NCBI GenBank assembly: GCA_021234155.1
Contig: JAJEKV010000033.1
Coordinates: forward strand, 14,949,422 to 15,013,421
Origin: Isoetes taiwanensis
Taxonomy: Eukaryota > Streptophyta > Lycopodiopsida > Isoetales > Isoetaceae
Reading direction: 5' to 3'
DNA: 64,000 nucleotides
Part shown: positions 16,321-60,793 of the stretch, piece by piece
Layout: every line of letters begins with the position of its first letter
How positions within the stretch are numbered: the first letter of the stretch is position 1
Notes under the pieces: generated by a model
Database searches by the model: none
Told to the model about the DNA's origin: nothing
What the model saw: only the letters and a program-made list of their open reading frames with translations
Translations under genes and position numbers: made by a program

Positions 16321-16326
16321 GAAAAG

Positions 16327-17110: not shown

Positions 17111-17262
17111 AAATTGTCAGAATCACCGATGAGTTCCTCGTTGAGTTTGGAGTATTACCACGCTTGCGTGATGTCAAGTAATGTAGTTGGCTATCCAATT
17201 GGTGGCTTACACAATATCGCTATACAAGTGGAATTGTTTCTAGAAACAAGATTGCGATAAAC
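17111..17262 (+). pseudogene. Deg/HtrA protease fragment (DEG9-like), copy 1
   Basis: Follows the P0 homology with no intervening sequence. The blocks VEFGVLPRL and VVGYPIGG can be read in different frames. In plant Deg proteases this block precedes the catalytic-Ser region. In copy 1 it is broken by indels; copy 2 (48396-48518) is clean. The catalytic GNSGGP block is not present. Confidence 0.65.
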
Positions 17263-17686
17263 GGAGCAAATCATCGAAAACGAGAGCAAAAGGAATATTC
17301 CTCAAAGATTCCCTTTTTTTTTTTTTACAAAAAGGGGGTAAAACTAGGTTAAAAAAAAAAAAGATGCATGAAATTTATTTTGACCCCCCCAAAATGACTA
17401 ATTTTTTTTGTGCAACCAAAGAATTGACATTTTTAAAGTGTCACTTTTCTTAGCAAATAGAATGTTCTTGAAGTATATTTTACGAGAGAATCTCTAATTT
17501 CGTGAGGATAAAATATTTAACAAAAAAATTGAAGTAAGTCCGTGAATCAAACTCAGTAGTATTCTCAAAATTTGAAGATAGAATCTTCATATTCACATGC
17601 AAAATTTACGCCTTTTTCTAAGACTCCGCTTATGTGCAAAAGTATGAGGAGGATGAAGGAGGGATCCGTGACGCCATCATGTTCAT

Positions 17687-20600
17687 TTATGCCATCCTCA
17701 TCACCTTCACTTCCTTCATCACACTAGAGGAAGTGCTTGAGTTATCTTCCTCATCACTATCAACAGATGGTGAAGCATTGCCACCACCTTCTTCATCATC
17801 TTCTTCGTAATTACAAGCTTTTTAAGCAAATTGATAGTCCTCCATGTAGACGATTGTCGATTTCAATTTAAAATCATAGCATAATATAGTCACGCCATTA
17901 AGGATCAGCTCATCCCTACAACCCACCTTCTTGACTTTCTCCCTTTTCCTTGGCTTCTCATTTCTAACTCATATCTACCTTCAAAAGCATTTTCTCGAGC
18001 GTGTTGCAAGCCAATGAATCTTGAGTTTAGTGACTAAGCCTTCCTCCTTGACCGTGGTCAAGCACTTTTGCTATCCGTAGAAGGTCGACCTTTGTCATCC
18101 TCCCTCAAGGGAAGAGCAATTAGCATACCCTTGGTAATTTCTCGTGATATTACCTTGAGGCTCATTCCTCGCCTTTGGTCCGAGGTACATGACTCCGATC
18201 CTCGCCTTCTTCTATCGCAGTGCTAACGTAGCATTGCTTGGACATGCTTGGTGTCAGGTTGATGGAAGGTGTTAGGCCATTGAAATGGTTCTTGCAACCG
18301 CCTTTAGAGCTATATTTTTCACAACAATTTTCTGTTCTCGAGAAAGAAGTTACTCCACCACATTCGATCTTCTTCTAAGAAGTACTTAAAGCCCGAGGAA
18401 ATTCCATTTTCTATGGCTTTTAAGGATGACTCGGGGTACTTTTCTTCCCGCTTGGACTCTTAGGATTTTTGAGAGGAAGTTGCTCAAAGACGCTCTCTAC
18501 TGAAGGAAGTGTCCGAATATATTTAAGGAAGCGTGCATCCCTCCTCGTGGACTCCAAATCCTTAGTTGTGGTATACTTCTTGCCCCTCAGAAGAAACTCG
18601 GGTCATCCTTCAAGTAGAACTTGATGTGATGTTGAAAGGTGAGATCATTCAATTTGTTCACAGCCTTGTTCTCTCGTCTCAAACGCTGAGAGAAAATAAA
18701 CTCTCTCAAATCAGCCAGCCTCTTTAAGAAGATCGATCACCGGAGTGGGAGTGTAAGAATCTTCAATAATTCGAACTAAAGTAGGAAGAGAGAAAGCCTT
18801 CTTCCTTCCGAGGCGCACGTAAAATCTGGCTAACATTTGGTCAATTTGATCATGAGTGTGGCCTACAAGTAAGAAACCCAAATTTCACTTTTCTAAAGAT
18901 CCCTAGCTCCACTAACATGGCACAAAGACGCAAAAGAGTGTTTGGTTCTTGTTCTCCCTTGTAGTATTGTCAAGTTGCGTAAAGCAATCGGTGGTAATTG
19001 CTCTTGCTCGCATTGTGACCTTGTTAAGAATTGTAATTGTGAGGTTCGGGTCACCATGCAAGTTTGATACGCCAAGAATACTTTGCACTTTAGACTTCCT
19101 TTGAAGACCATAGCTCCTACAAGGTGGACCTTAACAAAACATTCCTCCGCACATCTTTAGGAATGTTCAAGAAATGCGTAGAGTAGTTTTTTGGTCCATT
19201 CCATCAATCACAATGCATATATATTGCAAAGGGACGCTCAAGAGCTTTTTTCTCCGTGTTTGGCAAGCTTTCTTCTCTCTGCTTGTTGTTCACGATGTCC
19301 CGCAAGGTTCTCATGCACAATATCCAGAGAAGAAATGAGGTCAAAGCATTATCTTTAAAACAAGTGAGAGATTGGAGAACATGAGCTTACTTCTTTCGAC
19401 CTCCTCGCCTTTGCAGCTTTTTTGACTTTTAATTCTCAAGACACCTTGAACAAACGTGACATTCTATGTCTCCCCGAATTTTCACTAAACCAAATTCACT
19501 TTTCCACACCGGGTGAAGTGTGAGTAAGAGATGTGTCAAGCCGAAAGTGCAAGTCTCTTTGTACTCATTAAAAACATCTTTTTGGTGATGTTATCGCTAA
19601 ATGATACATGTTACCGTTAGGGCAGCTTCTCACATGTTTCTCTAAAATATTTCTCCATCCACGACATAAGAGCAAAGGGCATGCATGGTTATAACTCTTC
19701 TTGGTCCACAATGATCATTAATTGCTGGATTTTTGTCCAGCCTTTTGTGTATTCTAGACATTCTCGTGGAACCTAAACAAAGGACAACCATAAAGCATTT
19801 CCGCAAACTTTGACGGTTAATGTAGTGCAAGAAGGTGTTGCGGTCTGGTCTTACATGATAGGCCAAATAGGCATTCCGGTCAGCCAATGTCATTGAACTC
19901 AGAAGTTGTCTCTAATTGCTCGTAATTTAGCCATGTTAAATTTGTTGATGCAACCCAATGAGCAAAGATTTACTTCTTAAAAGTTTTCTCATTTTGTGCT
20001 CGGCCCATAAGGTTTCTTCTTCTTACAGAGGAGCATGCTTCAAACTAAAATCCACCTTGAATTTCTTGGTGGATTGGCTAGAGAATGTGTAATCTCGCTG
20101 CACTTCGCTGGTGTCTTCATCCTCCTAAGAGAGTTCTACTGGGGTGACCTCCTCTACCCTTAGTGGTGTGCTTGTAGAGGAGAACAAACCACGTGAAGAA
20201 GCCGCACTTCTGATAAGGCGGAGGTGGTGCAAAGTGTTGAATGAAGGAGATGGGCCACCATATGATGTGCCAAATAAAAGTTGTTGTAGCTGCCTTCACA
20301 GGGAGTTCGCTCAAACATGTCTCTTAAAGCGACCGAAATTCTCGCGAAACCCATGTGTCACCACGCTTGTGTGAAGAGGTGTAGATGCCGCAGGTCGCCT
20401 TCATTTGTAGTGAAATCGCGGGTGGAGAAGCGATGGAGGATCTCGCAGCCTTTAACGCGTTGTATTCCCCGCATGTGTAAGTGAAGGTGGAGAAACAACA
20501 AACGGCGGAGGTAGCCTGTTCAAAAATTTGCCGAGGTCGAGCCATTGTAGTGTCGGGATGGTACAAATGGTGGTGGAAGATTGCTACGCGGCAAATGTGA

Positions 20601-20826
20601 GGGTTGGAAAGGTGGTGGCAGCCGGTTTCCTACCGGACTTGGAGAGGGTTGGAAAGGTGGTGGCAACCGCTAGTTACCGGACTCTGAGTGTCTTCGAAGC
20701 AACAAAGACCTTGTCGAGGTAGGTGTTGAAGAAGCATCTCCGCCTTGTGTTCCATCCGGGCGTAGAGGTACTTGGGCAAACAAATGGTGGTGGAAGTTTG
20801 TTCACTAAGCCGTTAACCATGTCAAA
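17687..20826 (-). CDS. Gene A, DUF7869-like transposase-related protein, copy 1
   Basis: Minus-strand gene, the same as 48941-52069. Visible motifs in order are a VCRKCF-like Cys block (broken in this copy, near 19.8 kb), VIDGMDQK near 19190-19213, QLDNTTRENKNQ near 18940-18975 and LLVGHTHDQIDQ near 18838-18870. The C-terminal tail ends at TAA 17687-17689 after an acidic Ser/Asp/Glu-rich stretch. The spaced Asp and His residues fit a large family of uncharacterised eukaryotic proteins (Pfam DUF7869, from memory) for which a transposase-like RNase H fold is my inference. Copy 1 is more broken than copy 2, with indels near CAG/CTG sites. The 5' end faces gene B across a palindrome array. The start is uncertain. 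Confidence 0.65.
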
Positions 20827-20878
20827 CAACCGCAAAAAATTGTGGGCTTGTTACTAACTCACAAGTCGATTGACTAAT

Positions 20879-20970
20879 GATATTCAAGAATACAAATGCT
20901 ATTCCTAATAGTATTTTGTGTGCAAAGATTTGTCGTGGTGCTAAAGATGTTATTCCGTAATACACTTGTC
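20879..20970. repeat. Single TATTC..GAATA dyads upstream of gene A
   Basis: Three dyads of the same family as the main array, without the longer arms. TATTCAAGAATA is at 20881-20892. A longer one with centre CCTA is at about 20896-20916, and one near 20950-20965. In copy 2 they lie at 52127-52138, about 52138-52160 and about 52196-52212. The first is identical in both copies; the others differ at the centre. Confidence 0.7.
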
Positions 20971-21212
20971 CGCAGTGTTTGGACAAGACGATTCCACATT
21001 ACATAGAAAAACACAACCGACAAAGGGCCTACCTTTTAAAAGGAAAATCGAGCGCCCCGGGCCATGATTCCGCCAGAGATTTAGTCGCCACCGAAAGAAA
21101 CCGATCAATATACATTTGTCAGATTCCGATTTACATAGCGAAGACAATGGATGTAAGCATATAAAAGTACATAGTACGCCTTTTCTTTTGTTTCCCCGAT
21201 TTGTTTTGTAGG

Positions 21213-21480
21213 GCAAAGTGTATTCCGTATACACTTTGCCCATTCGTTAAGAGCAAAGTGTATTCCTAATACACTTTGCTTATCATCGGAAGTGCAAAGT
21301 GTATTCCTAATACACTTTGCCCTTCGGTGAAGAGCAAAGTGTATTCCTAATACACTTTGCACTACGCCAGAGTGCAAAGTGTATTCCTAATACACTTTGC
21401 TCCTTGTTCGAAGGGCAAAGTGTATCCCTAATACACTTTGACTTCACTGAAGGGCAAAGTGTATTCCTAATACACTTTGC
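21213..21480. repeat. Seven-unit palindrome array, 40-bp pitch, copy 1
   Basis: Seven near-perfect palindromes with half-site GCAAAGTGTATTC facing its reverse complement. They start at 21213, 21253, 21294, 21334, 21374, 21415 and 21454, so the pitch is 39-41 bp. Spacers of 12-14 bp differ in sequence, so selection or conversion has kept the dyads. The centre reads CCTAAT in most units, but CG in copy 2. The array lies between the 5' ends of genes A (minus) and B (plus), where a shared bidirectional promoter would be. Confidence 0.95.
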
Positions 21481-21721
21481 TTGTCTTTTTGAAACTCTTG
21501 TTTTTAGCACTTAATGAAGACACCTTTAGCTAAAAATGCACTAATTTTAAAGGTTAAAATAACAATTTCGAGTCCAATTAAGGCACAAAAAATTGTCTTA
21601 GAGTTACTATATTTCTCGCTTGTTTTCCCCTGCCTTTTTCTCGCCTTTAGGGCACAAGATTAGTAAATGTTATTCGAATACGCTGCTCAATTTCCTTTAA
21701 CATTGTTGTTTTAAACGCTTC

Positions 21722-24700
21722 AAGGCAGTGGAAGTAGGAAGCAAGAGGGCATCAAAGAAATCTCATAAGCCTAAGCCGCCCACACCCACAAAAAGCACAC
21801 CGACACACGGACGAACCCGCTATTTAGAAAACTTTCAAACGCAGTGGTTCGTGAACTGTGGGTGCAGATGGAAAATACAAAGACACCGACGCTTTTGTAC
21901 GCCCCCAGAAAAGTGCCGGTAACAAAAGGTACGCCGACCGAAGTTTGTGAACCTTGGGACAATAAAAGATGTTGAGGAAGTTGCCTGGACAAGGTGGTCG
22001 TGGGGAGGCTATCCTTCAAGACCTCCCAAGGCTTCATAGTTGTGGACATCGTGATTTTTTAGAATTGTCAAGGCAGGCAACCACCGCAGATCGCATAAAT
22101 TCTTTTCACACTACCGGCCAAAAAGAAGCCTCGTGGTTCGCATTAGACAGTTTGTACCAAGACAAGCGGGACTTTCCCCGCCGCTGAGTCCGAAAAGCAT
22201 CTCGATGGAGAAAGGTCACAATCATCACCCTCGATGGTAGTTCTTCGTGGAGGTCATCGATGGAGGTTCCCGTGAACAAGACGGAAGAACCCCCGGGCGC
22301 CAAGGAAACTTAGCAGGCCAAGGGGAAACCATAGCCGCTAAAGAACCAAAGAAGCTTTAAAGCACAAAGCCAGCCTTGAAATCACAGAAGTCCCCGAGGA
22401 ACCTAAGAAGAAGAAGGGGAAGGGTAAAGCACCTGGTGTTGCTATTAAGGAAAAAAAAGTTGATAAAACATCTGAAAAAATGGAAGAGATTAACCTGCAC
22501 AAGTTTGTGCAAGGTGTCATTTATTTGCCAGTTACTTCAATGAAGCTTCCTCCCAAAAATGAAGTCGGGTGAAAGGCCACTTCAGTTCGCAAAATTTATG
22601 CCGATCACTTGAGGAACCCGGCGACGTAATAAGGAGCAATCCAAATGCTCATGTGGCCCCAATAGTTGTCCTTGTTGACAGGAGCAAAGGCACAACCCCC
22701 GTGAGTATGATGAGAAAACGCCGACACGCATAATCACTACGCCTTGGGAGGGAATCATAGCTTCAAGGCAAGAAGGCAACTTTACAAAGAAAAGAAGAAC
22801 CCGAGGTACCTCTCCGGCCCTCTCCGGGCCGCTTCACCGTGGGTCTTACGATGAAGAAGCAAAAATCGCTGCCAACACCCACAATGCCGACAACGAAAAC
22901 AAACTAAAGATGAGCTTTGTCGACAAGATCCGGTTTATGCATCGTGGAGTATGTAATTTTCAAGGAAAAGTACCTGAGGACCTTAAGAAGCCAGCATTTT
23001 CCTTTGGAGCTTAAGGAGGCGCGGTGCCATTGAATGTCGCCTCGAAATATGACGAGGCCAAAAAAGGCGCCTCTCATTGGCCACGACAACCGGTTCCAGC
23101 TTAGCTTTTAGAGATGGCAAGGTAAGCACAAAATGTATTCCGTAATAGCAAACCGACTATTTGACGCGGAAATCTTCTTGAACAGATTTGGGAACCTGTG
23201 ACGAGATATTTACAATGTTCGAAATAGGGGAGTTAAAGAGCAAGGGCAAGGAGACAGCCAAGAAAAAAAACCCTGACGCGCCCAAAAAAGAAATGACCAT
23301 TACCGCCCTGAGGGAAATGCGTGGCTTCTCCGACACGGAGCTTCTGGAGCAGCTTCTCCAAAAAGTTGTTGATAAGAAGTTTAGCCTAGAAGAAATGTCA
23401 AAGGAATTGCACAAGTAAGTTCTCTGACACAAACTTTACTCTTTGCATGTTAGATTCCCAAAAACATCGGCGTACATAGTGTATTCTAGAATACACATGC
23501 CATCCTTCACACGGCAATGTGTATTCCGACATACACATTGCTTGTCTCTAGAAAAGCATTGTGTATTCCGGAATACACATTGCTCCTCTAAAGAAAGGCA
23601 TGTGTATTCCGGAATACACATTGCTTTTCTAGAGACAAGCAGTGTTTGTCCTGTAGCAGAATTATTTTCTGCATATTGTTTCGAGGTAGCATCAAGCTAA
23701 CCGGCTTGTATTCCGTATACAAATAGCTTGACTTTTATTTGTTTTCCTTTTACTTTGCCTTGATTCTTACGCTTAATCTCATTGTTTCCTTTAACGCCTT
23801 GCAGCCAAAAGAACGCCATAACATGTCAAACATGTTTGATGGAGCAGCTAAACGTCAAACATGGGAAAGGTGCAAGGAACTCTACCCAATTGCCACATCC
23901 GACGAAAGATTGTGCAATATGCACCAAATTTTGAGGGCTGGGTAAGTACTCAAAATTCCTTTTCTCACAAACGATCTCTTGACAGCTTGTTGTTTTGTTT
24001 TTCTTCGAGCAAAAAGAAAAATAAGGACCCGCCCGAGGGCTTTATGAATTTGGTTAGAACAAAGACGAAGAGAGGTCGTTAGTCGAAAGAAGAACTGTTG
24101 AGCCGTAACCATCCGACTACGAGATTCTCGCATGTTTGATCAAAACAATTTATATTCAATCATTCATGGTGATTGCAACGAACCTTGTCGGAACGGTTAA
24201 GCCACGTGACTTTACTTTGGTTATTGCTGATCTTCCCTACGGGTTTAAGCTTAAAGACAGCCAGATACGACGACCAGCCCTTCAAATTTTCGAGTTTAAT
24301 GCTTTCATTGAAGGAATCAAGCAGATCTCAACGCCAAACATTGGCGCTTAGTTACGCTCCATTCGAAAGCATGCACCGCTTGGTGGAATCAGCTTTCAAA
24401 AATCACTTTGGTTCTCCGGGGCCAGTGTGATATGAAAACCTTGTTCAGTAAGTCTTATTCCGTATCACAATTACTTTTCTCTTTAATTACGAGTGTATTC
24501 CTAATAGTGTTTCCCCGCTTCCTGGCCAAAGTGTTTTTTTTTTTGCTAACATCACTTTAAATGCTTCACTAGGTACAAAACTAACATCAACTACCATGGT
24601 GGAGGACCAAGGTTGCTCAAAGAAGGTAGAGTACCTTCATGTAGCTTATTGGAGTTTTGATGGGAAGAGGTCCATGGAACACTTTAACACCGCCACCAAA

Positions 24701-25242
24701 AACTTTTCAAACGCCCTAGAGTTTCCAGCAGCCTTACGTAAATTGCAGGACCCAAGTGCACAAGGCAGATTGTGAATCACTACCGTAAACCACAAAAGCT
24801 CATCAACCATCTCCCGGACATGTTCTCGCCCGTGAGATTGGGTGCTTGATGCTTTCTCCGGTTCCGTACTACTATCGCATGTGCACTTAAGAAGGGCCGC
24901 AAATCGTAGCCGCGGATATTGATAAGGAGGTCGTGCATTTTGTGAAGATGAGACTGGCTGCCTTTACCTACTTTACCGTGATGAAAATCAAGAGTTAGGG
25001 GCCAAGTCTTCATCCGATTATGCTAAACTAACGCCCTCGTGAGATACAAAATTCCCATTCTCGAAAGCTCACTAGACGACGAGGCAACCTTTGCAGAGCT
25101 TAAAGAAGTAGCTTTAGCTACCATTCCAGAGAACAAGGAGGATACAAAACTTAAGTCTCCAGCAAAGGAGCAGATTGAACAGAAGGACGAGACGGCAGAG
25201 AGCAGCAAAAAAAATGAGGAGGACTATGATGTAGATCTTTGA
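21722..25242 (+). CDS. Gene B, beta-class DNA amino-methyltransferase, copy 1
   Basis: Spliced gene, the same as 52980-56544. The N-terminus is basic (GSKRASKKSHKPK), like a nuclear signal. Middle exons are Lys/Glu-rich. The exon at 23186-23414 ends FSLEEMSKELHK before a GTAAGT donor. Introns inferred: 23122-23185, 23415-23804, about 23942-24009 and 24448-24572. The catalytic part has HGD near 24168, VIADLPYGF at about 24220-24246 (motif IV, DPPY type) and, later, LDAFSGS at 24845-24865 (motif I, SAM binding), then VAADIDKEV (acidic residue that binds the ribose). This IV-before-I order is that of bacterial beta-class N6-adenine/N4-cytosine methyltransferases. The acidic C-terminus stops at 25240-25242. 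Frames shift several times, often near CAG/CTG sites. Confidence 0.75.
23479..23624. repeat. Four-unit palindrome array inside gene B intron, copy 1
   Basis: Dyads at 23479-23496, 23514-23541, 23556-23583 and 23598-23624, pitch about 42 bp. Half-site GCAATGTGTATTC differs from the main array only in the outer arm. The first unit has centre TA and is identical in copy 2. The others have centre CCGG here and CG or CGG in copy 2. The array lies in the 390-base intron 23415-23804; another dyad, TTGTATTCCGTATACAA, is at 23707-23723. Confidence 0.9.
24448..24572. repeat. Two TATTC..GAATA-type dyads in a gene B intron
   Basis: The intron between the DLPY exon and the following exon begins GTAAGTCTTATTC, so a dyad starts within 7 bases of the 5' splice site. 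A second dyad (GTGTATTCCTAATAG) lies at 24489-24503. Intron 23122-23185 likewise carries ATGTATTCCGTAATAG about 12 bases after its donor. Equivalent dyads are at 55699-55709 and 55738-55750 in copy 2. Confidence 0.7.
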
Positions 25243-28200
25243 TCATCGTGATATTAAAAGTATCATTATTTATTACAATGAATCTTCAATATTGATGTAC
25301 AAACATTTATTAAAAACATATTACTTTTTTTTCCTTTCTATTCTGGTGCTTTTTTTTGTAATGCTTTCAGTCTCTTCAAGTCTATGCCTAAATTTCGCTA
25401 TTTTTATGATTTCTGTTTCATAAGTACAAAGTTTTCGCCTAATGATGGGCCAAAATGGCATGAAAAAAAATGCAAACCTCTAGAAATTCTCAACAACTAT
25501 CAAAAAGGGCTTATTTTAGAAACATGGTGTTTTTTTAAAGGGAATCTTTGAAACGGGAGTGATGCAACACTCCCGTTTAATTTGCAATCGTGTTTAGAAT
25601 TGAAGTCACATCTTATGTGCATGGTTATTGTTAGGTGTGCAGGTAAGTTAGTGAATTGTAATGCTTATTCATTTGATTTCTTTGGAGTTATATACATACA
25701 TTTTTAAATTTTGACGAGAGAGACACATTTTGCTCCACAGATTGATTTTGCTCGACCATTAAGTACATTATCTCAAACCTTATAGTATTTTGCAAATCTT
25801 AATATACAAAGATATAAAAAACTTGTATATGCATACCCCACAAACGAGGATCGCTATGTACAAATTCGTATCTTGGAATAAAGGGCAAATATGCCCATCC
25901 GACAGCTCTCGTTGCCCAGAGTAAGCCTCCGTGTGAATATGCACCCAAACCAAAGGGGGTTTCAGGGGGATTTTGATTTAAATGTGTTGGATGCAATGGT
26001 CTATATTAATTAATGTTAATGATAGTTATGTGTCGATTGCTATATATCAGAACTTTTACAAGCATCTTAGACACTTCTTTTGTTCCATTCCTTAATTTTG
26101 AGAATTTGAGTGTACCAAATAGAAGGTTTATACTATCTACGACTTCCATGGAATCATAAGCATACGTCTTAGATCAAACCTGATTTAGAAAGCTCCACTT
26201 ATTCTGCTTATATCTAGACATTCTTCTAGTTTGAAACAACCACACAAAGTAATCGCAAATTCCACACAAACCTAGCAGAGCAAGCTCGTGCATAAACAAT
26301 AAGCAGCCACATGCAAGTATCCTGTTCATGGCATAGCAACAACGACTGGCAAAGCCATAACAATTATTGAAAACTTAAAAATGTAGAAGCTCATCATATT
26401 ATAAAAAAGAATAACCAAACGAAAGCAAGAAACCATTTCAAGCAGTCAAAATCACGAGCATATGGCGTAAATAGCATCTTTTTACCTTGCCTTTAGATCC
26501 GTGTTATAACCGCTATTACCAAATATCTTGGACATTTTTAAGCCCGGTACTTCCCGATGCCAAGATATTCTCTCGCCGCTAGATTAAAGCCACGATGTAT
26601 GCCATCCGTATATTATTTGATGATAGTTTAAAGCCGTGAGCTAGTTTACAACATCCAACATAAGTTTGTTTGTGCATTTTGATCGCACCTAGTTTGTAAA
26701 CCTCAGATATGCATATCTATCTTGCATATTTTTCAGCTGCCACAAGCAAAGTTGGCTCTAAAACAAGCAATAAGCATCGATATTTCTTGATGCTCTACCA
26801 TTACTATCAAACTGCAACCGATCTGCTTCATAATATAAGCCTTGAAGCAAGATCATACCTTCAGAGGCCATAGCTTAGACTCGCAATAGATCACCATCTC
26901 TTACCATCGATCTCAAGCAAAACCCATCAACTGCTATGCCCTTTTAAGGCCGCTTTGGCCACCATGTTTGCCGGAAAAGCCCTAATATTTTAGTCGAATC
27001 CAATATTATAGGTCTTTAGAAAATTATAAACTCCAACCAATAAGCCATTCAAAAAACTATTGTATTTTCCAAGGCTTGTGTAGTATGCAAAGGCAAAACT
27101 AAATGCATATTTTCTATATTTGCTAAAAAGTCGCCATGATGGGATATTTTGAAGCCAAAAAATGCATTTCATATCATATCAATCTCTTTGTATACTAAGA
27201 AAGTCCCTAGTTTGCATTTTTGCATTTTAGCATGGTTTTGAAGATACGAAGAGCATTTTCTTTCTTTTTTTTGTTGCCCCTAGGGCAAGCCCTCGTCCCA
27301 TGTGGGTTTATGGCATATTCCGTGTATATGCCACTATATGCCCGAATATGCAATGCTTGCAAACAAAGCGTGGTCAACTTATGTTGCTTGGCGTACCACT
27401 TTGGAAACCAAATAACCGGTTTTGGTCCGATAAGATTTTCCTTGCAGATTTAACAAGCATTGATTGTGGAGGCAAATGGAGCCACCAAGACCGTAATAAC
27501 ATTTCTTGGTTACCGTTAGCTTATACCGATGTATCTATGAAAAAAAGAACAAGCTATTTGATTATGGACTATACAAAGTTTTAGCCCCGATGCATATCTT
27601 TCTTCCTCCCAAATAGTCGCCTCCTAACACCACAGACGCTCCTAGAATGGTGAAAGTCAAGATGATGCCGCTTGTTCGTGGAGTACAAAGCATCCGTAAA
27701 ATCGGGTAATTTTCTCGCAACCACCCAAATTGGAACTTTCATGCCATTTTCTTTGTAGCTTATTATATGAAGATAAAACATTCTCGCGACTTCAAAGAAT
27801 ATCCGCAAGAGAATTTAATATCATTTATGATGCCATGCTAATCAGATTCAGTACTCAGCCAGATGCATAATTCAACCGAACAAGACCAACGGATGTGATG
27901 TCAAAGACACCCACCACATCTTAGACTACTGGAGCTGGAAAAAGGACATGGTCAAAGACAACATGTTTGCTTGGTGAGATCAAGAATAAGGAACAAGTAG
28001 GTCTTAGCCTCCAGAATTCATAGACATGGCATAACAACTTATGACCTTGCTACATGTGAGCAAACAATGAATTGTAATTGTTACCAATTGGATAAGCTTC
28101 ATTGTACACGTAATTACAAGTCTATACCTAATTAGTTTGGCTGATACTTAGGCAGTAATGGAAAGTGTACAAACATGACACAATAAAAATACATTATAAG

Positions 28201-48395: not shown

Positions 48396-48518
48396 CCTGT
48401 TGAGTTTGGAGTATTACCACGTTTGCAGGATGCTGTTAATGTAGTTGGCTATCCAATTGGTGGCGACACAATATCAGTTACAAGTGGAATTGTTTCTAGA
48501 AACAAGATTGCGTATTAA
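48396..48518 (+). pseudogene. Deg/HtrA protease fragment (DEG9-like), copy 2
   Basis: The frame reads [19 protein letters not shown], then [15 protein letters not shown], and stops at TAA 48516-48518. Plant DEG9-like proteases read nearly the same here ([29 protein letters not shown] spans the region before the catalytic Ser). It is joined directly to P0, a different gene. Only about 40 codons are present; no catalytic triad residue can be shown. Confidence 0.8.
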
Positions 48519-48940
48519 ACGGGAGCAAATCATCGAAACGAGAGCAAAAGGAATATTCCTCAAAGATTCCCTTTTTTTTTTTTACAAAAAGGGGGTAAAA
48601 CTAGGTTAAAAAAAAAAAGATGCATGAAATTCTATTTTGACCCCCCCCAAAATGACTAATTTTTTTGTGCAACCAAAGAATTGACATTTTTAAAGTGTCA
48701 CTTTTCTTAGCAAATAGAATGTTCTTGAAGTATATTTTACGAGAGAATCTCTAATTTCAGAGGATAAAATATTTAACAAAAAATTGAAGTAAGTCCGTAA
48801 CTGAAACTGTAGTATTCTCAAAATTTGAAGATAGAATCTTCATATTCACATGCAAAATTTACAGTCTTTTTCTAAGACTCAGTTATGTGCAAAAGTATGA
48901 GGAGTGATGAAGGAGGGATCCAGGACGTCATCATGTTCAT

Positions 48941-51900
48941 TTATGCCATCCTCATCACACTGTCACTAGAGGAAGTGCTTGAGTTATCTTCCTCATCACT
49001 ATCAACAGATGGTGAAGCATTGCCACCACCTTCTTCATCCTCTTCTTAAGTAATTACAAGCTTTTTAAGCAAATTGATAGTCCTCTCGCGTGAGCGATTG
49101 TCGATTTCAATTTAAAATCATAGCATAATATAGTCCGTCATTAAGGATCAGCTCATCCCTACAACCCACCTTCTTGGACTTTCTCCCTTTTCCTTGGCTT
49201 CTCATTTCTAACTCATATCTACCTTCAAAAGCATTTTTTAAAAATGTGTTGCAAGCCAATGAATCTTGAGTTTAGTGACTAAGCCTTCCTCCTTGACTGT
49301 GTCAAGCACTTTTGCTATCCAGAAAGGTCGACCTTTGTCATCCTCCTCAGTAGGAAGAGCAATTAGCATACCCTTGGTAATTTCTGTGATATTACCTTGA
49401 GGCTCATTCTGCGTCTTGGTCCGGGGTACATGACTCGATCCTCGTCTTCTTCTCTGCCGGTGCTAACGTAGCATTGCTTGGACATGCTTGGTGCTGGGGT
49501 TGATGGAAGGTGTTAGGCCATTGAAATGGTTCTTGCAACTGTCTTAGAGCTATATTTTTCACAACAATTTTCTGTTCGAGAAAGAAGTTACTCCACCACA
49601 TTCGATCTTCTTCTAAGAAGTACTTAAAGCCTGAGGAAATTCCATTTTCTATGGCTTTTAAGGATGACTCTGGGGTACTTTTCTTCTGCTTGGACTCCTT
49701 AGGATTTTTGAGAGGAAGTTGCTCAGCACGTTCTACGAAGGAAGTGTCTGGAATATATTTAAGGAAGCGTAATCCCTCTGGTGGACTCTAGTCCTTAGTT
49801 GTGGTATACTTCTTGCCCTGTAAGAAACTCTGGTCATCCTTCAAGTAGAACTTGATGTGATGTTGAAAGGTGAGATCATTCAATTTGTTCACAGCTTGTT
49901 CTCTGTCTGAACGTTGAGAGAAAATAAACTCTCTGAAATCAGCAGTCTCTTTAAGAAGATCGATCACTGGAGTGGGAGTGTAAGAATCTTCAATAATTCG
50001 AACTAAAGTAGGAAGAGAGAAAGCCTTCTTCCTTCTGAGGCGCACAGAAAATCTGCTGAACATTTGGTCAATTTGATCATGAGTGTGGCCTACAAGTAAG
50101 AAACCCAGCTTCACTTTTCTAAAGATCCCTAGCTCCACTAACATGGCACAAAGATGCATAAAAGAGTGTTTGGTTCTTGTTCTCCCTTGTAGTATTGTCA
50201 AGTTGCGGGTAAAAAGCACTGGTGGTAATTGCTCTTGCTCGCCGCGGGACCTTGTTAAGAATTGTAATTGTGAGGTTCGGGTCACCATGCAAGTTTGGAT
50301 ACGTCAAGAATACTTTGCACTTTAGACTTCCTTTGAAGACCATAGCTCCTACAAGGTGGACCTTAACAAAACATTCCTCTGGCACATCTTTAGGAATGTT
50401 CAAGAAATGCGGTAGAGTAGTTTTTTTTTGGTCCATTCCATCAATCACAACAGACATATATTGCGATTGGGCGTTCAAGAGCTTTTTTTACGTGTTTGGC
50501 AAGCTTTCTTCTCTCTGCTTTGCTTGTTGTTCCGCGATGTCGGCAAGGTTACATTGCACAATATCGTAGAAGAAATGAGGTCAAAGCATTATCTTTAAAA
50601 CAAGTGAGAGATTGGAGAACATGAGCTTACTTCTTTTCGACCTCTGTCTTTTGCGGTTTCTCTTTGACTCTTTAATTACGCACACCTTGAACAAGCGGAC
50701 ATTCTATGTCTCACGGGAATTTTCACTAAACCAAATTCACTTTTCCACATCACGGTGAAGTGTGAGTAAGAGATGTCTTTGAAGGCGAGTGCAAGTCTCT
50801 TTGTACTCATTAAAAACATCTTTTTGGTGATGTTATCGGTTAAATGATACATGTTCTTGTTAGGCAGCTTCTCACATGTTTCTCTAAAATATTTCTCCAT
50901 CCACGACCACGGCAGAAGGGCATGCATGGTTATAACTCTTCTTGGTCCACAATGATCATTAATTCTTGGATTTTTGTCCGATCTTTTGTGTATTCTAGAC
51001 ATTACGGTGGAACCTAAGCGGTGGACAACCATAAAGCATTTACGGCAAACTTCTTGGCGGTTAATGTAGTGCAAGAAGGTGTTGCGGTCTGGTCTTACAT
51101 GATAGGCCAAATAGGCATTACGGTCAGCCAATGTCATTGAACTCGTAGTTGTCTCTAATTGCTCGTAATTTAGCCATGTTAAATTTGTTGATGCAACCCA
51201 ATGAGCGACATTTACTTCTTAAAAGTTTTCTCATTTTGTGCTTTCGTCCATAAGGTTTCTTCTTCTTCAGAGGAGCATGCTCTCAAACTAAAATCCACCT
51301 TGAATTTCTTGGTGGATTGGCTAGAAAGAATGTGTAATCTCGTTGCGCCGTTGGTGTCTTCATCCTCCTGAAGAGAGTTCTACTCACGGGGGTGACCTCC
51401 TCTACCCTTAGTGGTGTGCTTGTAGAGGAGAACAAACCACGTGAAGTTGTACTTTCGGATAAAGCGGAGAGGTGCGGTGTTGAATGAAGGAGATGGGCCA
51501 CCATATGATGTGCCCGGCCGAAGTTGTTGTAAGCGTCTTCCGCGGGGAGTTCGTTCAAACATGTCTCTTAAAGCGGTGAAATTCAAACCCATGTGTCACC
51601 ACGTTTGTGTGAAGAGGTGTAGATCTTTGCGAGGTCGTCTTCATTTGTAGTGAAATCGTGGTGGGAGAAGCGATGGAGGATCTCGCAGCCTTGAACGTCT
51701 CTTGTATTCTGGCATGTGTAAGTGAAGGTGGAGAAACAACAAACGGCGGAGGTAGTCGGTTCGAAAAATTTCTTTGAGGTCGAGCCATTGTAGTGTCGGG
51801 GATGGTACAAATGGTGGAAAGATTGCTACGTGCAATTGGTGAGGGTTGGAAAGGTGGTGGCGGCGGTTTCCCTCTTGGACTTGGAGAGGGTTGGAAAGGT

Positions 51901-52069
51901 GGTGGCGATCACGCTGGTTCTTGGACTCGGGTGTCTTGAGAAGCAACAAAGACCTTGTCGAGGTAGGTGTTGAAGAAGCATCTCCGTCTTGTGTTCCATC
52001 ACGAGTAGAGGTACTTGGGCAAACAAATGGTGGTGGAAGTTTGTTCCTGGAAGCGGTTAACCATGTCAA
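48941..52069 (-). CDS. Gene A, DUF7869-like transposase-related protein, copy 2
   Basis: From the N-terminal side: a Pro/Thr/Ser-rich region with two repeats of TTFPTL type (52.07-51.8 kb); a less certain segment to 51.3 kb; a conserved part from 51137 containing VCRKCFMVVHRLGS, a DHCGPRR block and HRMSACSRC (Cys pair); an intron inferred at about 50632-50579 (GTAAGC donor); then YMSVVIDGMDQKKTTLPHF, QLDNTTRENKNQ and LLVGHTHDQIDQMFSRFS (50096-50055). The Asp/His positions are those of the DUF7869 family. A C-terminal extension has an aromatic patch (EDRMWWSNFFLEQ) and an acidic tail with stop at 48941-48943. Function is not established. I infer a nuclear, possibly nucleic-acid-processing protein from a mobile element. 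The start codon is uncertain: a TTG at 52069 and an ATG near 51788 are both possible. Confidence 0.7.
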
Positions 52070-52465
52070 ACAAGCGCAAAAATTGTGGGCTTGTTACTAA
52101 CTCACAAGTCGATTGGACTAATGATATTCAAGAATACAAATGCTATTCGGAATAGTATTTTGTGTGCGACATTTGTTGTGTGTGCGCAAAAGATGCTATT
52201 CGAATACACTTGTCGAGTGTTTGGACAAGGCGTATTCCACATTACATAGAAAAACACAACCCGACGGTGGCCTACCTTTTAAAAAGGAAAATCGGCCCTC
52301 GATTCGCGTATTCCGCTTTTCAGAGATTTAGTCGCCCGGCCCGAAGCCCTTCAGATCAATATACATTTGCTGTATTCCGATTTACATAGCGAAGACAATG
52401 GGCGGGTAAGCATATAAAAAGTACATAGTGCGTCTTTCTTTTGTTTCCTGATTTGGTTTTGTAGG

Positions 52466-52733
52466 GCAAAGTGTATTCGAATACACTTTGCCCATCTATC
52501 GAAAAAACAAAGTGTATTCCTAAATACACTTTGCTCATTTAGCAGTGCAAAGTGTATTCGGAATACACTTTGCCCTTCAGTGAAAACAAAGTGTATTCGG
52601 GAATACACTTTGCACTACGCCAGTGCAAAGTGTATTCCGAATACACTTTGCTCCTTGAAAGAAGGGCAAAGTGTATTCCGAATACACTTTGGACTTCACC
52701 CCGAAGAAAAAGTGTATTCGGAATACACTTTGC
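52466..52733. repeat. Seven-unit palindrome array, 40-bp pitch, copy 2
   Basis: Units start near 52466, 52507, 52547, 52587, 52625, 52666 and 52706. Half-sites are as in copy 1 (AAAGTGTATTC inner part). Centres read CG, CCTA, CGG or CCG. It lies about 250 bp before the gene B start and about 400 bp from the gene A N-terminal region. Confidence 0.95.
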
Positions 52734-52979
52734 TTGTCTTTGGAAACTCTTGTTTTTAGCACTTAATGAAGACACCTTTTAGCTAAAAACGGACCACTTT
52801 AAAGGTTAAAATAACAATTTCGAGTCCAATTAAGGCACAAAAATTGTCTTAGAGTTACTATATTTCTGCTTGTTTTCTGTCTTTTCCGGCCTTTAGGGCA
52901 CAAGATTAGTAAATGTTATTACGGAATACGATTTTTCGTTCAATTTACTGTCTTAACATTGTTGTTTTAAACGCGTTTG

Positions 52980-55900
52980 ATGGCGGGGAAGTAGGAAGCA
53001 AGAGGGCATCAAAGAAATCTCATAAGCCTAAGCGTCCACACCCACAAAAACACACGGCCGTGACACGGACGAACACGCTATTTAGGAAAACTTTCAAGCG
53101 GTGGTTAAGTTACCGAGTGCGGATGGGAAAATACTGACTGCTTGGCGTTTTTATGCGTCAATAAAAAGTCTTGGTAACAAAAGGTACGCCGACTCGAGTT
53201 TGTGAACCTTGGGACAATAAAAGATGTTGAGGAAGTTGCGGACAAGGTGGTCGGTGGGAGGCTATCCTTCAAGACCTCCCAAGGCTTCATAGTTGTGGAC
53301 ATCGCATTTTTAGAATTGTCGGTGTGCAACCACCGCCTTTGTACAAATTCTTTTCACACTACCGGGTCAAAAAGAAGCACGTGTTCGATAATTAGACGGT
53401 TTGTACCGGTACAAGGCGAGGACTTTCTGTCGGTGAGTCCGAGCATTCGGATGGAGAAAGGTCACAATCATCACCCTCGGATGGTAGTTCTTGGGGAGGT
53501 CATCGGATGGAGGTTCCCGGGAACAAGGCGTGGAAGAACCCCCCAATGCGGCCAAGGAAACTTAGCGGGCCAAGGGAAACCATAGGCGCTAAAGAACCAA
53601 AGAAGCGGAAAGCACACGGCGGACTTGAAATCCGCGAAGTCCCCAGGAACCTAAGAAGAAGAAGGGGAAGGGTAAAGCACACAGTGTTTGCTATTAAGGA
53701 AAAAAAGTTGATAAAACATCTGAAAAAATGGAAGAGATTAACCTGCACAAGTTTGTGCAAGGTGTCATTATTGCCGATCACTTCAATGAAGCTTCCTCAG
53801 AAAAATGAAGCTGGGTGAAAGGCCACTTCAGGTTCGCAAAATTTATGCCGATCACTTGAGGAACACGAAGGGACGAGAATAAGGAGCAATCAAATGCTCA
53901 TGTGGCCCCAATAGTTGTCCTTGTTGGCGAGGGCGGTGCACAACCCCCGGAGTATGGCGGAGAAAACGGCCCGACACGTACACTCACTCGTCTTGGGAGG
54001 GAATCATAGCTTCAAGGCAAGAAGGCAACTTTACAAAAAAAAAGAACCCAGAGGTACCTCTCCGTCCTCTGCTGTCTATCTGTCTTCTTCTGGATGAAGA
54101 AGCAAAAATCGTTGCCAACACCCACAATCTTGCGACAACGAGTACAAACTAAAGATGAGCTTTGTCGACAAGATCCGGTTTATGCCGCGGGGTATGTAAT
54201 TTTCAAGGAAAAGTACGGTGAGGACCTTAAACCCGACATTTTCCTTGGAGCTTAAGGAGGCGTGTGCCATTGAATCTTTGCACGAAATATGGCGAGGCCA
54301 AAAAAGCGGATCTCTCATTGGCCACGACAAGCTGGTTCGATTAGCTTTTAGAGATGGCAAGGTAAGCACAAAATGTATTCGAGAATAGCAAACCGACTAT
54401 TTGGCGTGAAATCTTCTTGAACAGATTTGGGAACTCGGGGCCGAGATATTTACAATGTTGAAAAGAGGGAGTTAAAAGCAAGAACAAGGAGACAGACAAG
54501 AAAAAAACCTCGGGCGTGCCCAAAAAAAGAAATGACCATTACCGTCTCGGAGGGAAATCACGGGGCTTCTCCGACCACGAACTTACGGGCGGCTTCTCCA
54601 AAAAGTTGTTGATAAGGAGTTTAGCCTAGAAGAAATGTCAAAGGAATTGCACAAGTAAGTTCTCGACACAAACTTTACTCTTTGCATGTTAGATTCCCAA
54701 AAACATCGGCACACATAGTGTATTCTAGAATACACATGCCATCCTTCACCACGGGCAATGTGTATTCGGAATACACATTGCTTGTCTCTAGAAAAAGCAT
54801 TGTGTATTCGAATACACATTGCTCCTCTAAAAAAAGGCATGTGTATTCGGAATACACATTGCTTTCTAGAGACAAGCGGTGTTTGTCTGTAGCGAAATTA
54901 TTTTACGCATATTGTTTCGAGTAGCATCGGTTAACGGTTTGTATTCGAATACAAATAGCTTGACTTTTATTTGTTTTCCTTTTACTTTGCCTTGATTCTT
55001 ACGTTTAATCTCATTGTTTCCTTAACGTCTTGCAGCCAAAAGAGCGTCATAACATGTCAAACATGTTTGATGGAGCAACTAAGCGTCGAAACATGGGAAA
55101 GGTGCAAGGAACTCTACCCAATTGCCACATCAAACTGGCGCATTGTGCAATATGCACCAAATTTTGAGGGGCTGGGTAAGTACTCTCAAAATTCCTTTTC
55201 TCTGCACAAGCGATCTCTTGGCGGTTGTTGTTTTGTTTTTCTTGAGCAAAAAGAAAAATAAGGACACACCCGAGGGCTTTATGAATTTGGTTAGAAACGG
55301 CCGGGAAGAGAGGTCGTTAGGCTGAAAGAAGAAGCTGTTGAGCGAACCATCCGACTACGAGAGATTACGCATGTTTGATCAAAACAATTTATATTCAATC
55401 ATTCATGGTGATTGCCGCGAACCTTGTCGAACGGTTAAGCCACGGGACTTTACTTTGGTTATTCTTGATCTTCCCTACGGGTTTAAGCTTAAAGGCGGCC
55501 GAATCTGACGACCAGCCCTTCAAATTTTCAGAGTTTAATGCTTTCATTGAAGGAATCAAAGCGGATCTCAACGGCCAAACATTGGCGTTTGAGTTCACGT
55601 TCCATTCGAGCATGCGATGCGGCTTGGTGGAATCGACTTTCAAAAATCACTTTGGTTCTCCGGTTCGGGCGGGGATATGAAAACCTTGTGCGGTAAGTCT
55701 TATTCGAATACAATTACTTTTCTCTTTAATTACGTAGTGTATTCGAATAGTGTTTCTGTTTCGGTTTTTCGAGTGTTTTCTTGTTTTGCTAACATCACTT
55801 TAAATGCTTCACTAGGTACAAAAGCGAACATCAACTACCATGGTGGAGGACCAAGGTTGCTCGGCAAGGTAGAGTACCTTCATGTAGCTTATTGGAGTTT

Positions 55901-56544
55901 TGATGGGAAGAGGTCCATGGAACACTTTAACAACTTGCCGCTGTCAAAACTTTTCAAAGCGTCCTAGAGTTTCCAGCGGTCTTCACGAAATTGCGGGACC
56001 CAAGTGCACAAAGCGGGATTGTGAATCACTACCACAAAAAGAAACCACAAAAGCTCATCAACCATCTCACGGACATGTTCTTAAGAAGCGTCCGGGGATA
56101 TTGATTGGAAAGATGAGCTGATGCTTTCTCGTTCCAAGTCTTCATCCGGTACTACTATCGCATGTGCACTTAAGAAGGGCCCTTTGCAGAAGCTTAAAGT
56201 GTAGCCCATGGATATTGATAAGGAGGCGTGCATTTTGTGAAGATGAGATCTTTGGCTGCCTTACCTACTTTACCGGATGAAAATCAAGAGTTAGGGGCCA
56301 AGTCTTCATCGATTATGCTAAACTAGCGTCCTCGGAGATCTGACCTCCATTCTCGAGCTCACTAGGCGATTTGTTTCGAGGCAACCTTTTCTTCCTGCTT
56401 AAAGAAGTAGCTTTAGCTACCATTCCGAAGAACAAGGAGGATACAAAACTTAAGTCTCCAAAGGAGGAGCAGATTGAGCGAGGGGGAAGGGCGAGGCGGT
56501 GACGAACCCAAAAAAATGAGGAGGACTATGATGTAGATCTTTGA
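52980..56544 (+). CDS. Gene B, beta-class DNA amino-methyltransferase, copy 2
   Basis: ATG at 52980 is favoured because a basic GSKRASKKSHKPK stretch follows (with one CAG-type indel). In the catalytic exon one frame reads LYSIIHGDCREPCRTVK, then RDFTLVILDLPYGFKL: HGD at 55404-55412 and DLPY at 55467-55478, 19 codons apart as in bacterial DPPY enzymes. After an intron, NYHGGGPRLLGKVEYLHVAY is followed by a middle region that may recognise DNA. Motif I is scrambled here, but GTTIACALKKG is intact near 56148-56180. The C-terminus is acidic, with stop at 56542-56544. DLPY replaces DPPY in both copies. Amino-methyltransferases make 6mA or 4mC; which base cannot be told from this sequence. Confidence 0.75.
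54718..54862. repeat. Four-unit palindrome array inside gene B intron, copy 2
   Basis: Dyads at 54718-54735, about 54755-54781, 54797-54822 and 54836-54862. The first has centre TA, the same as copy 1. A separate TTTGTATTCGAATACAAA lies near 54940-54957 in the same intron. Confidence 0.9.
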
Positions 56545-59500
56545 CTCTTGCATATTAAAAGTATCATTATTTATTACAATGAATCTTCAATATTGATGTA
56601 CAAACATTTATTAAAAACATATTACTTTTTTTTTGGGTAGTTACCTTTCTATTATTGTAGTGCTTTTTTTTTGTAATGCTTTCTAGAATGCTTTCTCTTC
56701 AAGTCTATGCCTAAATTTAGCTATTTTTATGATTTACGTTTCATAAGTACAAAGTTTTAAGCCTAATGATGGGCCAAAATGGCATGAAAAAAAAATGCAA
56801 ACCTCTAGAAATTCTCAACAACTATCAAAAGGGCTTATTTTAGAAACATGGTGTTTTTAAAGGGAATCTTTGAAGCGGGGTGATGCAACACTCCCGTTTA
56901 ATTCTGTCGTGTTTAGAATTGAAGTCACATCTTATGTGCATGGTTATTGTTAGGTGTCTGCGGGTAAGTTAGTGAATTGTAATGCTTATTCATTTGATTT
57001 CTTTGGAGTTATATACATACATTTTTAAATTTTGGCCAGAGAGACACATTTTGCTCCACAGTTGATTTTGCTTTCGACCATTAAGTACATTATCTCAAAC
57101 CTTATAGTATTTTGCAAATCTTAATATCTGATATACAAAAACTTGTATATGCATACCCCACAAACGAGGATCGCTATATGCAGTCCGGATCTTGGAATAA
57201 AGGGCAAATATGCCCATCAAACGACTCGTTGCCCGAGTAAGCCTCCTCAGGTGTGAATATGCACCCAAACCAAAGGGGTTTTGAGGGGGATTTTGATTTA
57301 AATGTGTTGGATGCAATGGTCTATATTAATTAATGTTAATGATAGTTATGTGTCGATTGCTATATATCGAACTTTTACAAGCATCTTAGACACTTCTTTT
57401 GTTCCATTCCTTAATTTTGAGAATTTGAGTGTACCAAATAGAAGGTTTATACTATCTCGACTTCCATGGAATCATAAGCATCGTCTTAGATCAAACTGAT
57501 TTAGAAAGCTCCACTTATTACCTTATATCTAGACATTCTTCTAGTTTGAAACAACCACCACGAACCTTTGCGATCCCACACAAACCTAGCGAGCAAGCTC
57601 GTGCATAAACAATAAGCGACCACATGCAAGTATCCTGTTCATGGCATAGCAACAACGGCCCAGCAAAGCCATAACAATTATTGAAAACTTAAAAATGTAG
57701 AAGCTCATCATATTATAAAAAGAATAACCAAGCGAGCAAGAAACCATTTCAAGCGGGGTCAAAATCCGAGCATATGGCGGAAATAGCATCTCTTTTACCT
57801 TGCCTTTAGATCCGGGTTATAAATCGGCTATTACCGACCTATCTTGGACATTTTTTAAGCACGGTACTTCACGATGCCGTATATATTCTCACATAAAGCT
57901 TAGATTAAAACCCGTGTGTATGCCATCCAGGTATATTATTTGATGATAGTTTAAAGCCGAGCTAGTTTACAACATCAACATAAGTTTGTTTGTGCATTTT
58001 GGTACACCTAGTTTGTAAACACAGTATATGCATATCTATCTTGCATATTTTTCAGCTGCCACAAGCAAAGTTGGCTCTAAAACAAGCAATAAGCATCGAT
58101 ATTTCTTGATGCTCTACCATTACTATCAAAGCTGCAACCGATCACGCTTCATAATATAAGCCTTGAAGCAAGATCATACCTTCGAAGGCCATAGCTTAGG
58201 CGCAATAGATCACCATCTCTCTTACCATCGATCTCAAGCAAAACCCATCAATCGGCTATGCCCTTTTTGGCCGCCGTTTTAAACCCACCATGTTTCTTTG
58301 GAAAAAGCCCTAATATTTTAGTCGACCCAATATTATAGGTCTTTAGAAAATTATAAACTCCAACCAATAAGCCATTCGAAAAAACTATTGTATTTTCCAA
58401 GGCTTGTGTAGTATCACAAAGGCGACTAAATGCATATTTTCTATATTTGCTAAAAGGCTGCCATGATGGGATATTTTGAAGCCAAAAAATGCATTTCATA
58501 TCATATCAATCTCTTTGTATACTAAGAAAGTCCCTAGTTTGCATTTTTGCATTTTAGCATGGTTTTGAAGATACGAAGAGCATTTTCTCTTCTTCTTTTT
58601 GGGTTGCCCCTAGGGGGCAAGCCCTAAATCCATGTGGGTTTATGGCATATTCGGGTATATGCCACTATATACTGGAATATGCAATGCTTGCAAGCAAGAT
58701 TGGCCGATGTTGCTTGGCGACCACTTTGGAAACCGATAACCGGTGTTTGGTCCGATAAGATTTTCCTTGCAGATTTAACAAGCATTGATTGTGGAGGCGT
58801 TCCGAACCACCAAGACCAGAATAACATTTCTTGGCTACGGGTTAGCTTGCGCTGATGTATCTATGAAAAAAAAGGAACAAGCTATTTGATTATGGACTAT
58901 ACAAAGTTTTAGCCCCGATGCATATCTCTTCTTCCTCCCAAATAGTCGCTCTCGGAACACCACAGGACGTTCCTAGAATGGTGAAAGTCGAAGATGATGC
59001 CGTTGTTAGGTGGAGTACAAAGCATCGAGAAAAATGGTAATTTTCTGCAACCACCCAAATTGGAACTTTCATGCCATTTTCTTGTAGCTTATTATATGAA
59101 GATAAAACATTACGCACTTGACAAATATCGCAAAGAGAATTTAATATCATTTATGATGCCATGCTAAGCGTATTCGATTACCGGTTGTGATGCATAATTC
59201 AACCGAACAAGACCAGCGGATGTGATGTCAAAGACACCCACCACATCTTAGACTCTTTGGAGCTGGAAAAAGGACATGGTCAAAGACAACATGTTTGCTT
59301 GGTGAGATCAAGAATAAGGAACAAGTAGGTCTTAGCCTCCAGAATTCATAGACATGGCATAACAACTTATGACCTTGCTACATGTGAGCAAACAATGAAT
59401 TGTAATTGTTACCAATTGGATAAGCTTCATTGTACACGTAATTACAAGTCTATACCTAATTAGTTTGGCTGATACTTAGGCAGTAATGGAAAGTGTACAA

Positions 59501-60732: not shown

Positions 60733-60793
60733 CATGCATGCAAAACATGCATGCTCGTCCCATTCTAGAATGGCGATCCGATGTCTCGGATCG
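60733..60793. repeat. Three consecutive inverted repeats, copy 2
   Basis: Same three dyads as 29398-29458; the arms are unchanged, while flanking bases differ. Confidence 0.8.

Follow-up and report, generated by a model that had tools for sequence, protein, structure and literature searches.

The closest described systems are the VANDAL/VANC system of Arabidopsis and the CACTA elements (Spm/En, Tgmt*). In the parts of PMC5735166 and PMC10398659 drawn on here, the VANDAL arrays consist of short motifs of one orientation in noncoding DNA, upstream and in the introns of the element's genes, with a motif which differs between related families and repeats which change fast; the VANDALs are MuDR elements, according to a portion of PMC12730594. 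The CACTA repeats, as far as the portion of PMC2613891 goes, are subterminal and element-specific, bind TNPA and must be present in cis for non-autonomous derivatives; both the repeats and the proteins that bind them vary by family, the ends are CACTA and the target duplication has three bases. Fungal DNA transposons encoding TET/JBP dioxygenases (same portion of PMC12730594) carry a DNA-modification enzyme.

The array described here lies in a window of 64,000 nucleotides (the whole stretch of Isoetes taiwanensis DNA that was analysed) and sits in a DNA transposon family, here named F1, of about 8.3 kb with two divergent genes, A and B. It shares with the VANDALs the arrays in noncoding DNA, upstream and in introns (inferred ones in our case), the family-specific motif and the fast change of the repeats, but the F1 motif is a long dyad with mostly fixed pitch, and genes A and B encode a DUF7869 protein and a DNA methyltransferase. 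F1 was rejected as a VANDAL, since the gene A pieces match DUF7869 with no MuDR-type transposase above the Pfam cut-off, and since the motifs are palindromic. It was also rejected as a CACTA/Spm element, having AACA ends and a 4-bp target site duplication (TSD) rather than CACTA ends and a 3-bp TSD. Its array is mid-element in autonomous copies and subterminal in gene-less ones. From the fungal transposons it differs by the methyltransferase, the plant host and the dyad arrays. The beta-class adenine methyltransferases CcrM, MboIIA and RsrI resemble the C-terminal part of gene B, which unlike them is eukaryotic, has inferred introns and lies within a transposon, downstream of a weak ParB-like region. 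The best reading of these comparisons is that the F1 arrays would work like VANDAL/VANC or Spm/TnpA arrays, while F1 falls in neither group, a defining feature of each being missing. Our literature search, whose scope lay outside most subscription-journal papers and bioRxiv, found nothing on DUF7869 and no N6_N4_Mtase in a DNA transposon with a transposase; nor did titles and abstract beginnings of the matches listed yield anything relevant on an Isoetes transposon with a methyltransferase or an I. taiwanensis transposase.

The array within a duplicated DNA transposon

The seven palindromes that the first-pass annotation had placed at 52466-52733 are real. They belong to the second (W2) of two element copies in the window, with the following features (strand given where there is one):

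48501..56913: W2, transposon copy with the array, 8413 bp, ends from comparing copies
48497..48500: TSD TAGA, left, of W2
56914..56917: TSD TAGA, right, of W2
48501..48525, plus strand: left terminal inverted repeat of W2, AACAAGATTGCGTATTAAACGGGAG
56889..56913, minus strand: right terminal inverted repeat of W2, altered here; usual form elsewhere AACACGATTGCAAATTAAACGGGAG on the minus strand
48880..52069 (approximate), minus strand: gene A, DUF7869 protein, probable transposase, frameshifted in W2
52980..56530 (approximate), plus strand: gene B, DNA methyltransferase, several exons, broken in W2, first coding exon imprecise
52466..52733: array 1 of W2, seven dyads
52471-52486, 52512-52529, 52552-52568, 52591-52608, 52630-52646, 52671-52687, 52712-52728: array 1 cores of W2
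54718..54857: array 2 of W2, four dyads, half-site type GCAATGTGTATTC, within an inferred gene B intron
GT at 54655, AG ending 55035: gene B intron holding array 2 (W2), inferred from splice signals and reading frames
54939..54954: one dyad, TGTATTCGAATACA, sharing the inferred intron with array 2
55737..55752: one degenerate dyad, further along gene B in another inferred intron
17245..25594: W1, same insertion in the duplicated block, 8350 bp
21213..21480: array 1 of W1, seven dyads
23479..23619: array 2 of W1

The half-site of the seven array-1 dyads is GCAAAGTGTATTC, in some with one or two outer mismatches. The window contains 41 occurrences of the octamer GTGTATTC, where 1.61 are expected (maximum 5 among 100 dinucleotide shuffles). 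The centre-to-centre distances of the cores are 42, 39.5, 39.5, 38.5, 41 and 41 bp in W2, and 40, 41, 40, 40, 41 and 39 bp in W1 (21213-21480), such that the pitch of 39-41 bp earlier claimed for both copies holds for W1, while W2 spans 38.5-42 bp. At several gene B introns a single dyad also lies within about a dozen bases of the inferred 5' splice site (window 54362-54388, 52909-52929 and 24449-24509), and the array spacers are themselves partly palindromic (CTTC...GAAG).

A block of about 17.6 kb is present twice in the window (15073-32662 and 46324-64000, 89% identical), and W1 and W2 share the TSD TAGA and their flanks. They are thus one transposon insertion, already in place when the block was duplicated, and the two copies lose the value as independent proof of conservation that they had been given. 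The duplicated blocks differ by many indels of 1-3 bases, in the flanks as well as in the element, with the look of an unpolished nanopore consensus. A reading frame which we take to resemble plant ribosomal protein P0 lies just outside the transposon (window 47704-48327, with fragments at 16428-16874); it is long and open in one block copy and disrupted in the other. Elsewhere in the window, at 35976-36138, a unit of about 80 bp stands in two identical tandem copies.

Twelve 10-kb stretches were picked from the genome for an A hit with a B hit, or a half-site cluster with a B hit, close together, and when these were compared the F1 ends were sharp: AACA[AG]GATTGCGTATTAAACGGGAG... and ...CTCCCGTTTAATTTGCAATCGTGTT, with single-base variants. 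The inverted ends measure about 25 bp and the TSD 4 bp. Both ends were found in 9 of the 12 fetched copies, which are 7.7 to 8.6 kb long, and in the window insertion; the TSD is perfect in eight of these nine (TTGC, TCTT, AATA, AAAC, GCTA, CTCA, ATAA and ATAT) and imperfect in L014 (CGAA/TGAA). F1 thus has the inverted ends and constant-length TSD that characterise a DNA transposon, and the notion of a stand-alone operator between host genes gives way, since the array belongs to an element of 8.35-8.41 kb. Array 1 begins 3.3-4.0 kb from the left end in the 11 autonomous-type copies whose left end is known (nine fetched, two in the window); the suggestion of a strictly subterminal array is not supported for these and applies to the non-autonomous elements described below. 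A conserved palindrome of 28 bp, AAACGGGAGTGATGCAACACTCCCGTTT, adjoins the right terminus (e.g. window 25550-25590) and is absent from the left end of the compared copies.

Dyad constraint, pitch and centres

In the genome (1,658,258,908 bases in 1110 contigs) the exact 18-mer GTGTATTCCGGAATACAC recurs 2585 times, against 0 for the reversed control. This is the commonest form of the dyad outside the window, and the usual pitch is 41-42 bp. Within loci the dyads are 0.93 identical (224 comparisons), a value inflated by picking the dyads by core likeness (at most 4 mismatches in 18), while spacers of equal length are 0.54 identical (105 comparisons); a template-free palindrome scan recovers the same dyads. 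Neighbour distances of 36-46 bp are 41 bp (37 cases) or 42 bp (51 cases) in 88 of 94, and 85 of the 113 distances up to 140 bp have one of these two values. Four helical turns at 10.4 bp correspond to 41.5 bp. Among the dyads picked by core likeness, those of one locus agree to 98-100% at core positions 3-6 from the axis, and outer arm positions 9, 10, 13 and 14 are complementary above the expectation for independent sides. Long dyads with a steady four-turn pitch, constant while the spacers drift, are as predicted for co-operative binding of homodimers. These results are in line with the proposal that the repeats are probable protein-binding sites in a shared bidirectional region of a mobile cassette, although the counted element copies are mutually related and not independent.

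The location of the dyads was surveyed in 13 near-full-length copies (11 fetched, among them L008 and L018 without a resolved left end, and W1 and W2), in which 186 TATTCCGGAATA-like sites (at most 2 mismatches) were found against about 4.3 expected from mononucleotide shuffles. All but three of the 186 lie in the A-B region or in inferred B introns (183 sites), the three being in B's last exon, and the coding part of gene A (element positions 1-3500) has none in the 13 copies. By element bin the sites fall at 3600-4399 (the A-B region), at 5700-5799, 6000-6499 and 7100-7299 (inferred B introns) and at 7800-7899 (the three sites of B's last exon). The weak dyad-like matches inside gene A at 19747 (W1) and 50988 (W2) come from a lax scan and are counted as chance matches. 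We regard it as very improbable that the dyads are palindromic units without function, multiplied like a satellite through slippage or template switching. The palindromic tendency of the spacers would suit such a by-product, as would the number of dyads, which differs from copy to copy; it does not predict that dyads and pitch are kept where spacers have diverged, that core-like sites are absent from A coding and nearly so from B coding, or that each sister family (see below) has its own dyads.

The dyads within the inferred B introns, several of them near an inferred 5' splice site, bring up an explanation at the RNA level, in which the transcribed dyads form hairpins with a stem of 7-12 bp and a CCGG loop, the four-base centre being a possible tetraloop, that control splicing or processing of B. 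However, the fixed core positions show no compensating variation (again among dyads picked by core likeness), a pitch of 41-42 bp has no obvious meaning in RNA, and the array is kept by gene-less elements; we consider this reading highly unlikely.

The centres of the dyads differ between the window and the rest of the genome. GTGTATT and AATACAC are separated by 4 bases in 8 of the 30 dyads of the window; among 281 dyads taken from 23 further sequences the figure is 183. Both counts derive from a lax scan that includes some chance matches. In the 23 sequences the commonest centres are CCGG (92), CCAG (34) and CTGG (23), the latter two being CpG deamination products of CCGG. In array 1 of W1 the centre is CCT in six of seven dyads, and W2 differs from W1 in the centre of all seven. 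Of the W1/W2 differences in the element, 66% of the differing columns are near CG compared with 34% of all columns, and the corresponding values for the two flanks are 53% versus 29% and 64% versus 26%, i.e. differences near CG are about twice as frequent as columns near CG. According to the part of PMC8566536 used here, the I. taiwanensis assembly was made from R9.4.1 nanopore reads with LR_Gapcloser filling. Because the differences cluster near CG in an assembly of this kind, the variable spacers of the window are likely to be mainly indels in the CCGG centre, arising as consensus errors at modified CCGG, and part of the variation may be true decay. The variable spacers, earlier taken as a design feature, are thus largely a property of the window. 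Decay of the CpG to TG/CA is found in 57 of 183 four-base centres (0.31), which is no lower than in element regions at large (0.10-0.26). The array has thus been cytosine-methylated in many copies, and it does not by itself keep copies open.

Genes A and B and the gene-less elements

PF25273 (Pfam) matches 49791-50303 on the minus strand with E 2.9e-29 and, in copy L011, 1289-2944 on the minus strand with E 3.2e-51, and DUF7869 is the sole match of the gene A pieces above the Pfam cut-off. Gene A probably encodes a transposase. Conserved acidic motifs in its alignment may resemble the catalytic D-D-D/E residues of the RNase H-fold DDE transposases. Its upstream exon gave a weak RFX-like winged-helix match (E 0.13 and 0.013, both below cut-off), at about the same place in gene A of two families. 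A PDB sequence search with gene A gave no meaningful match, and a scan of viral contigs for viral relatives gave none. DUF7869 was found in 0 of 14 control genomes, while this genome has 9911 first-look candidates, at least 150 of which scored above cut-off.

For gene B, whose introns were inferred from splice signals and reading frames, the PF01555 match has E 3.8e-17 (copy L012, 1329-2126, minus strand), and there are matches to CcrM (E 4.1e-8), MboIIA and RsrI; a ParB-like match is weak (TIGR03764, E 6.9e-4, 19.3 bits against a cut-off of 143.75). The gene carries a DLPYG motif IV, with the DLPYG frame upstream of the FSGSGT frame, and thus combines PF01555 with motif IV before motif I, as do the beta-class N6-adenine/N4-cytosine DNA methyltransferases. 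Gene B is a beta-class DNA methyltransferase, probably acting on adenine. Its methyltransferase part has matches in 47 of 50,697 phage records, all below 60% identity; its N-terminal part had no match in the phage records and nothing meaningful in a PDB sequence search.

This assignment gives some weight to the explanation that the dyads are recognition sites of the methyltransferase B itself, adenine (or N4-cytosine) methylation serving as a permissive mark or self label. The matches to bacterial enzymes and the DLPYG motif fit this, as does the fact that dyads flank gene B and occupy its inferred introns, and that the N-terminal region of B belongs to a divergent block together with array 1. 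On the other hand, a site of 18-28 bp far exceeds the known sites of this enzyme class, and the array persists in non-autonomous elements that lack B, on which B could still act in trans. Permissive 6mA has a precedent in 18 unicellular eukaryotes, where it is reported to mark transcriptionally permissive regions, in work that concerns MT-A70 enzymes, another class (in the part of PMC12695648 drawn on). We consider self-marking possible, though on balance doubtful.

The position of array 1 between divergent genes would also suit a classical operator array, in which the role of A or B would be autoregulation only, by repression or tuning of the two divergent promoters. Four of the 13 copies (L007, L018, W1 and W2) have an exact TATAAA 56-147 bp upstream of their first array-1 dyad, but none was found within 420 bp upstream in the other nine; moreover, further dyads occur in the inferred introns of B, and phased dyads are kept by non-autonomous elements that have neither A nor B. 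An operator function alone is therefore unlikely.

The last point comes from nine array places fetched by half-site alone, regardless of genes, from the first 100 half-site places listed; half-site clusters at C1, C21, C39, C46 and C97 lie outside these nine. A and/or B coding is present in seven of them (L019, L020, L021, L022, L024, L025 and L027): the array stands between divergent A and B pieces in L019, L022, L024, L025 and L027, L020 has it beside A with the left end of another element copy directly after the array, and L021 has B only. L023 and L026 are without A or B. All nine match F1, by coding or by an end plus the array, and an ordinary satellite independent of the mobile element was rejected on this ground. 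L026 is part of a gene-less element of 3.49 kb, read in three copies with L030 and L031 (TSDs TAGC, TAAT and TTCT), and L023 is part of a gene-less element of 4.2 kb with TSD CAAT. By type, the gene-less loci are L026, L029, L030 and L031 (3.5 kb) and L023 and L028 (4.2 kb). These elements of 3.5-4.2 kb have perfect TSDs in four of four cases and both ends as in autonomous F1; their dyads have a pitch of 39.5-42 bp and lie roughly 0.35-0.55 kb from an end, in the 4.2 kb element close to both ends. A search with 525 bp spanning the array and the left end gave at least 40 scored places, the query's own included, among 2307 first-look candidates, and these 40 were all at least 90% identical across most of the query.

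Arrays with no A or B nearby had been named in advance as a refutation of the first interpretation. Taken literally, they do occur, in two of the nine places, but each of the two belongs to a non-autonomous element that has the F1 ends and a perfect TSD, as would suit a transposon site acting in cis rather than an ordinary satellite. Since the gene-less elements keep the dyads, mobilisation or continued activity probably requires the site in cis, and its role would go beyond the regulation of A and B.

Sister families and proposed self-recognition

A second family (F2; L036 and L037) has GCGGTATAAATTTATACCGC-like dyads between A and B, in L037 also on the B side. Its gene A is 39-51% identical to that of F1 in aligned pieces of more than 400 residues (27-51% in all pieces), and its gene B is present and divergent (L036, L037). 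The exact GCGGTATAAATTTATACCGC occurs 906 times in the genome (control 0), and the dyad was also found in L038, L039 and L045 with 3 to 17 sites (at most 3 mismatches). A third class of dyad (F3), GTCTATGCGCGCATAGAC, occurs 213 times in exact form (control 0) and is present in L041, L042 and L043 with 8 to 13 sites (at most 4 mismatches). Two of eight further A-upstream stretches, L040 and L044, had none of the three dyads, and two dyad classes were found together in 0 of 37 loci, a scan made without L001-L006, L028 and L029. Common to all three classes is a TAT that occupies positions 6 to 4 counted from the axis; the next three bases are TCC, AAA or GCG. With related copies included, the phase concentration at 10.4 bp is R = 0.50 in F2 (47 distances) and 0.40 in F3 (20 distances). 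The F3 distances are mixed (31, 40 and 48 within loci, and 52 twice between exact sites) and a general rule of strict helical phasing across the families is not supported. The comparison suggests a set of related jumping genes, each with its own palindrome by which the element would recognise only its own kind. A separate dyad in each sister family makes it probable that the binder is encoded by the element or matched to the family.

Within F1 the copies are mosaics. Exon 2 of gene A is 94% identical among 13 copies (W1 91% to the rest), while the central block (A 5' end, array 1 and B 5' end) falls into two types, 58-68% identical between and 81-90% within types. Array 2 and the 3' half of B together form two types of their own (73-79% between, 91% within), and all four combinations of central and 3' types are present in copies that include L007, L011 and L012, one combination in L009 only. 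As the central block falls into types as a unit, the N-terminal parts of A and B travel with array 1, an association that physical linkage alone could explain.

Overall, we consider it probable that a protein encoded by the element binds the dyads, that these sites are specific to the family, and that they serve activity or mobilisation in cis. Each dyad of 18-28 bp (core TGTATTCC|GGAATACA) would hold a homodimer of such a protein, and the pitch of 41-42 bp, four turns of B-DNA, would place the dimers on the same face, where they could co-operate. Through the occupied array the element would recognise its own copies and raise their activity: in autonomous copies the bound array would lead to expression of A and B, and in non-autonomous copies, which have the common ends and the array, to mobilisation or open chromatin. 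The binding, the homodimer, the co-operation and the identity of the binder are steps that we infer from sequence. The N-terminal part of B or that of A is the candidate binder, both being divergent and changing as one block with array 1, and the effect of binding may be anti-silencing, transposition or autoregulation. Four observations were counted against the binding-site reading: the different position of the array relative to the ends in autonomous and non-autonomous elements, the less regular F2 and F3 spacing, the two stretches (L040, L044) without any of the three dyads, and the CpG decay at dyad centres, no lower than in the element at large.

It is tempting to speculate further, on a tentative and rather improbable line, that in one lineage of eukaryotic DNA transposons a bacterial-type adenine methyltransferase has been coupled to the element's own palindromic address, which is specific to the family. 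The enzyme or a partner would dock as dimers on the helically phased array and write a non-cytosine mark on the control DNA, countering silencing by host cytosine methylation in cis and, for gene-less derivatives, in trans; a change of address (TAT-TCC, TAT-AAA, TAT-GCG) would found mutually blind families.

With 2585, 906 and 213 exact dyads in three classes, in autonomous as well as gene-less elements, these transposons form a large natural series for the study of self-recognition and silencing evasion, in a plant lineage distant from Arabidopsis. Repeated elements of a plant's nuclear DNA here carry a gene for a bacterial-type DNA methyltransferase, which would make the disputed adenine methylation of plants directly testable at defined sites.
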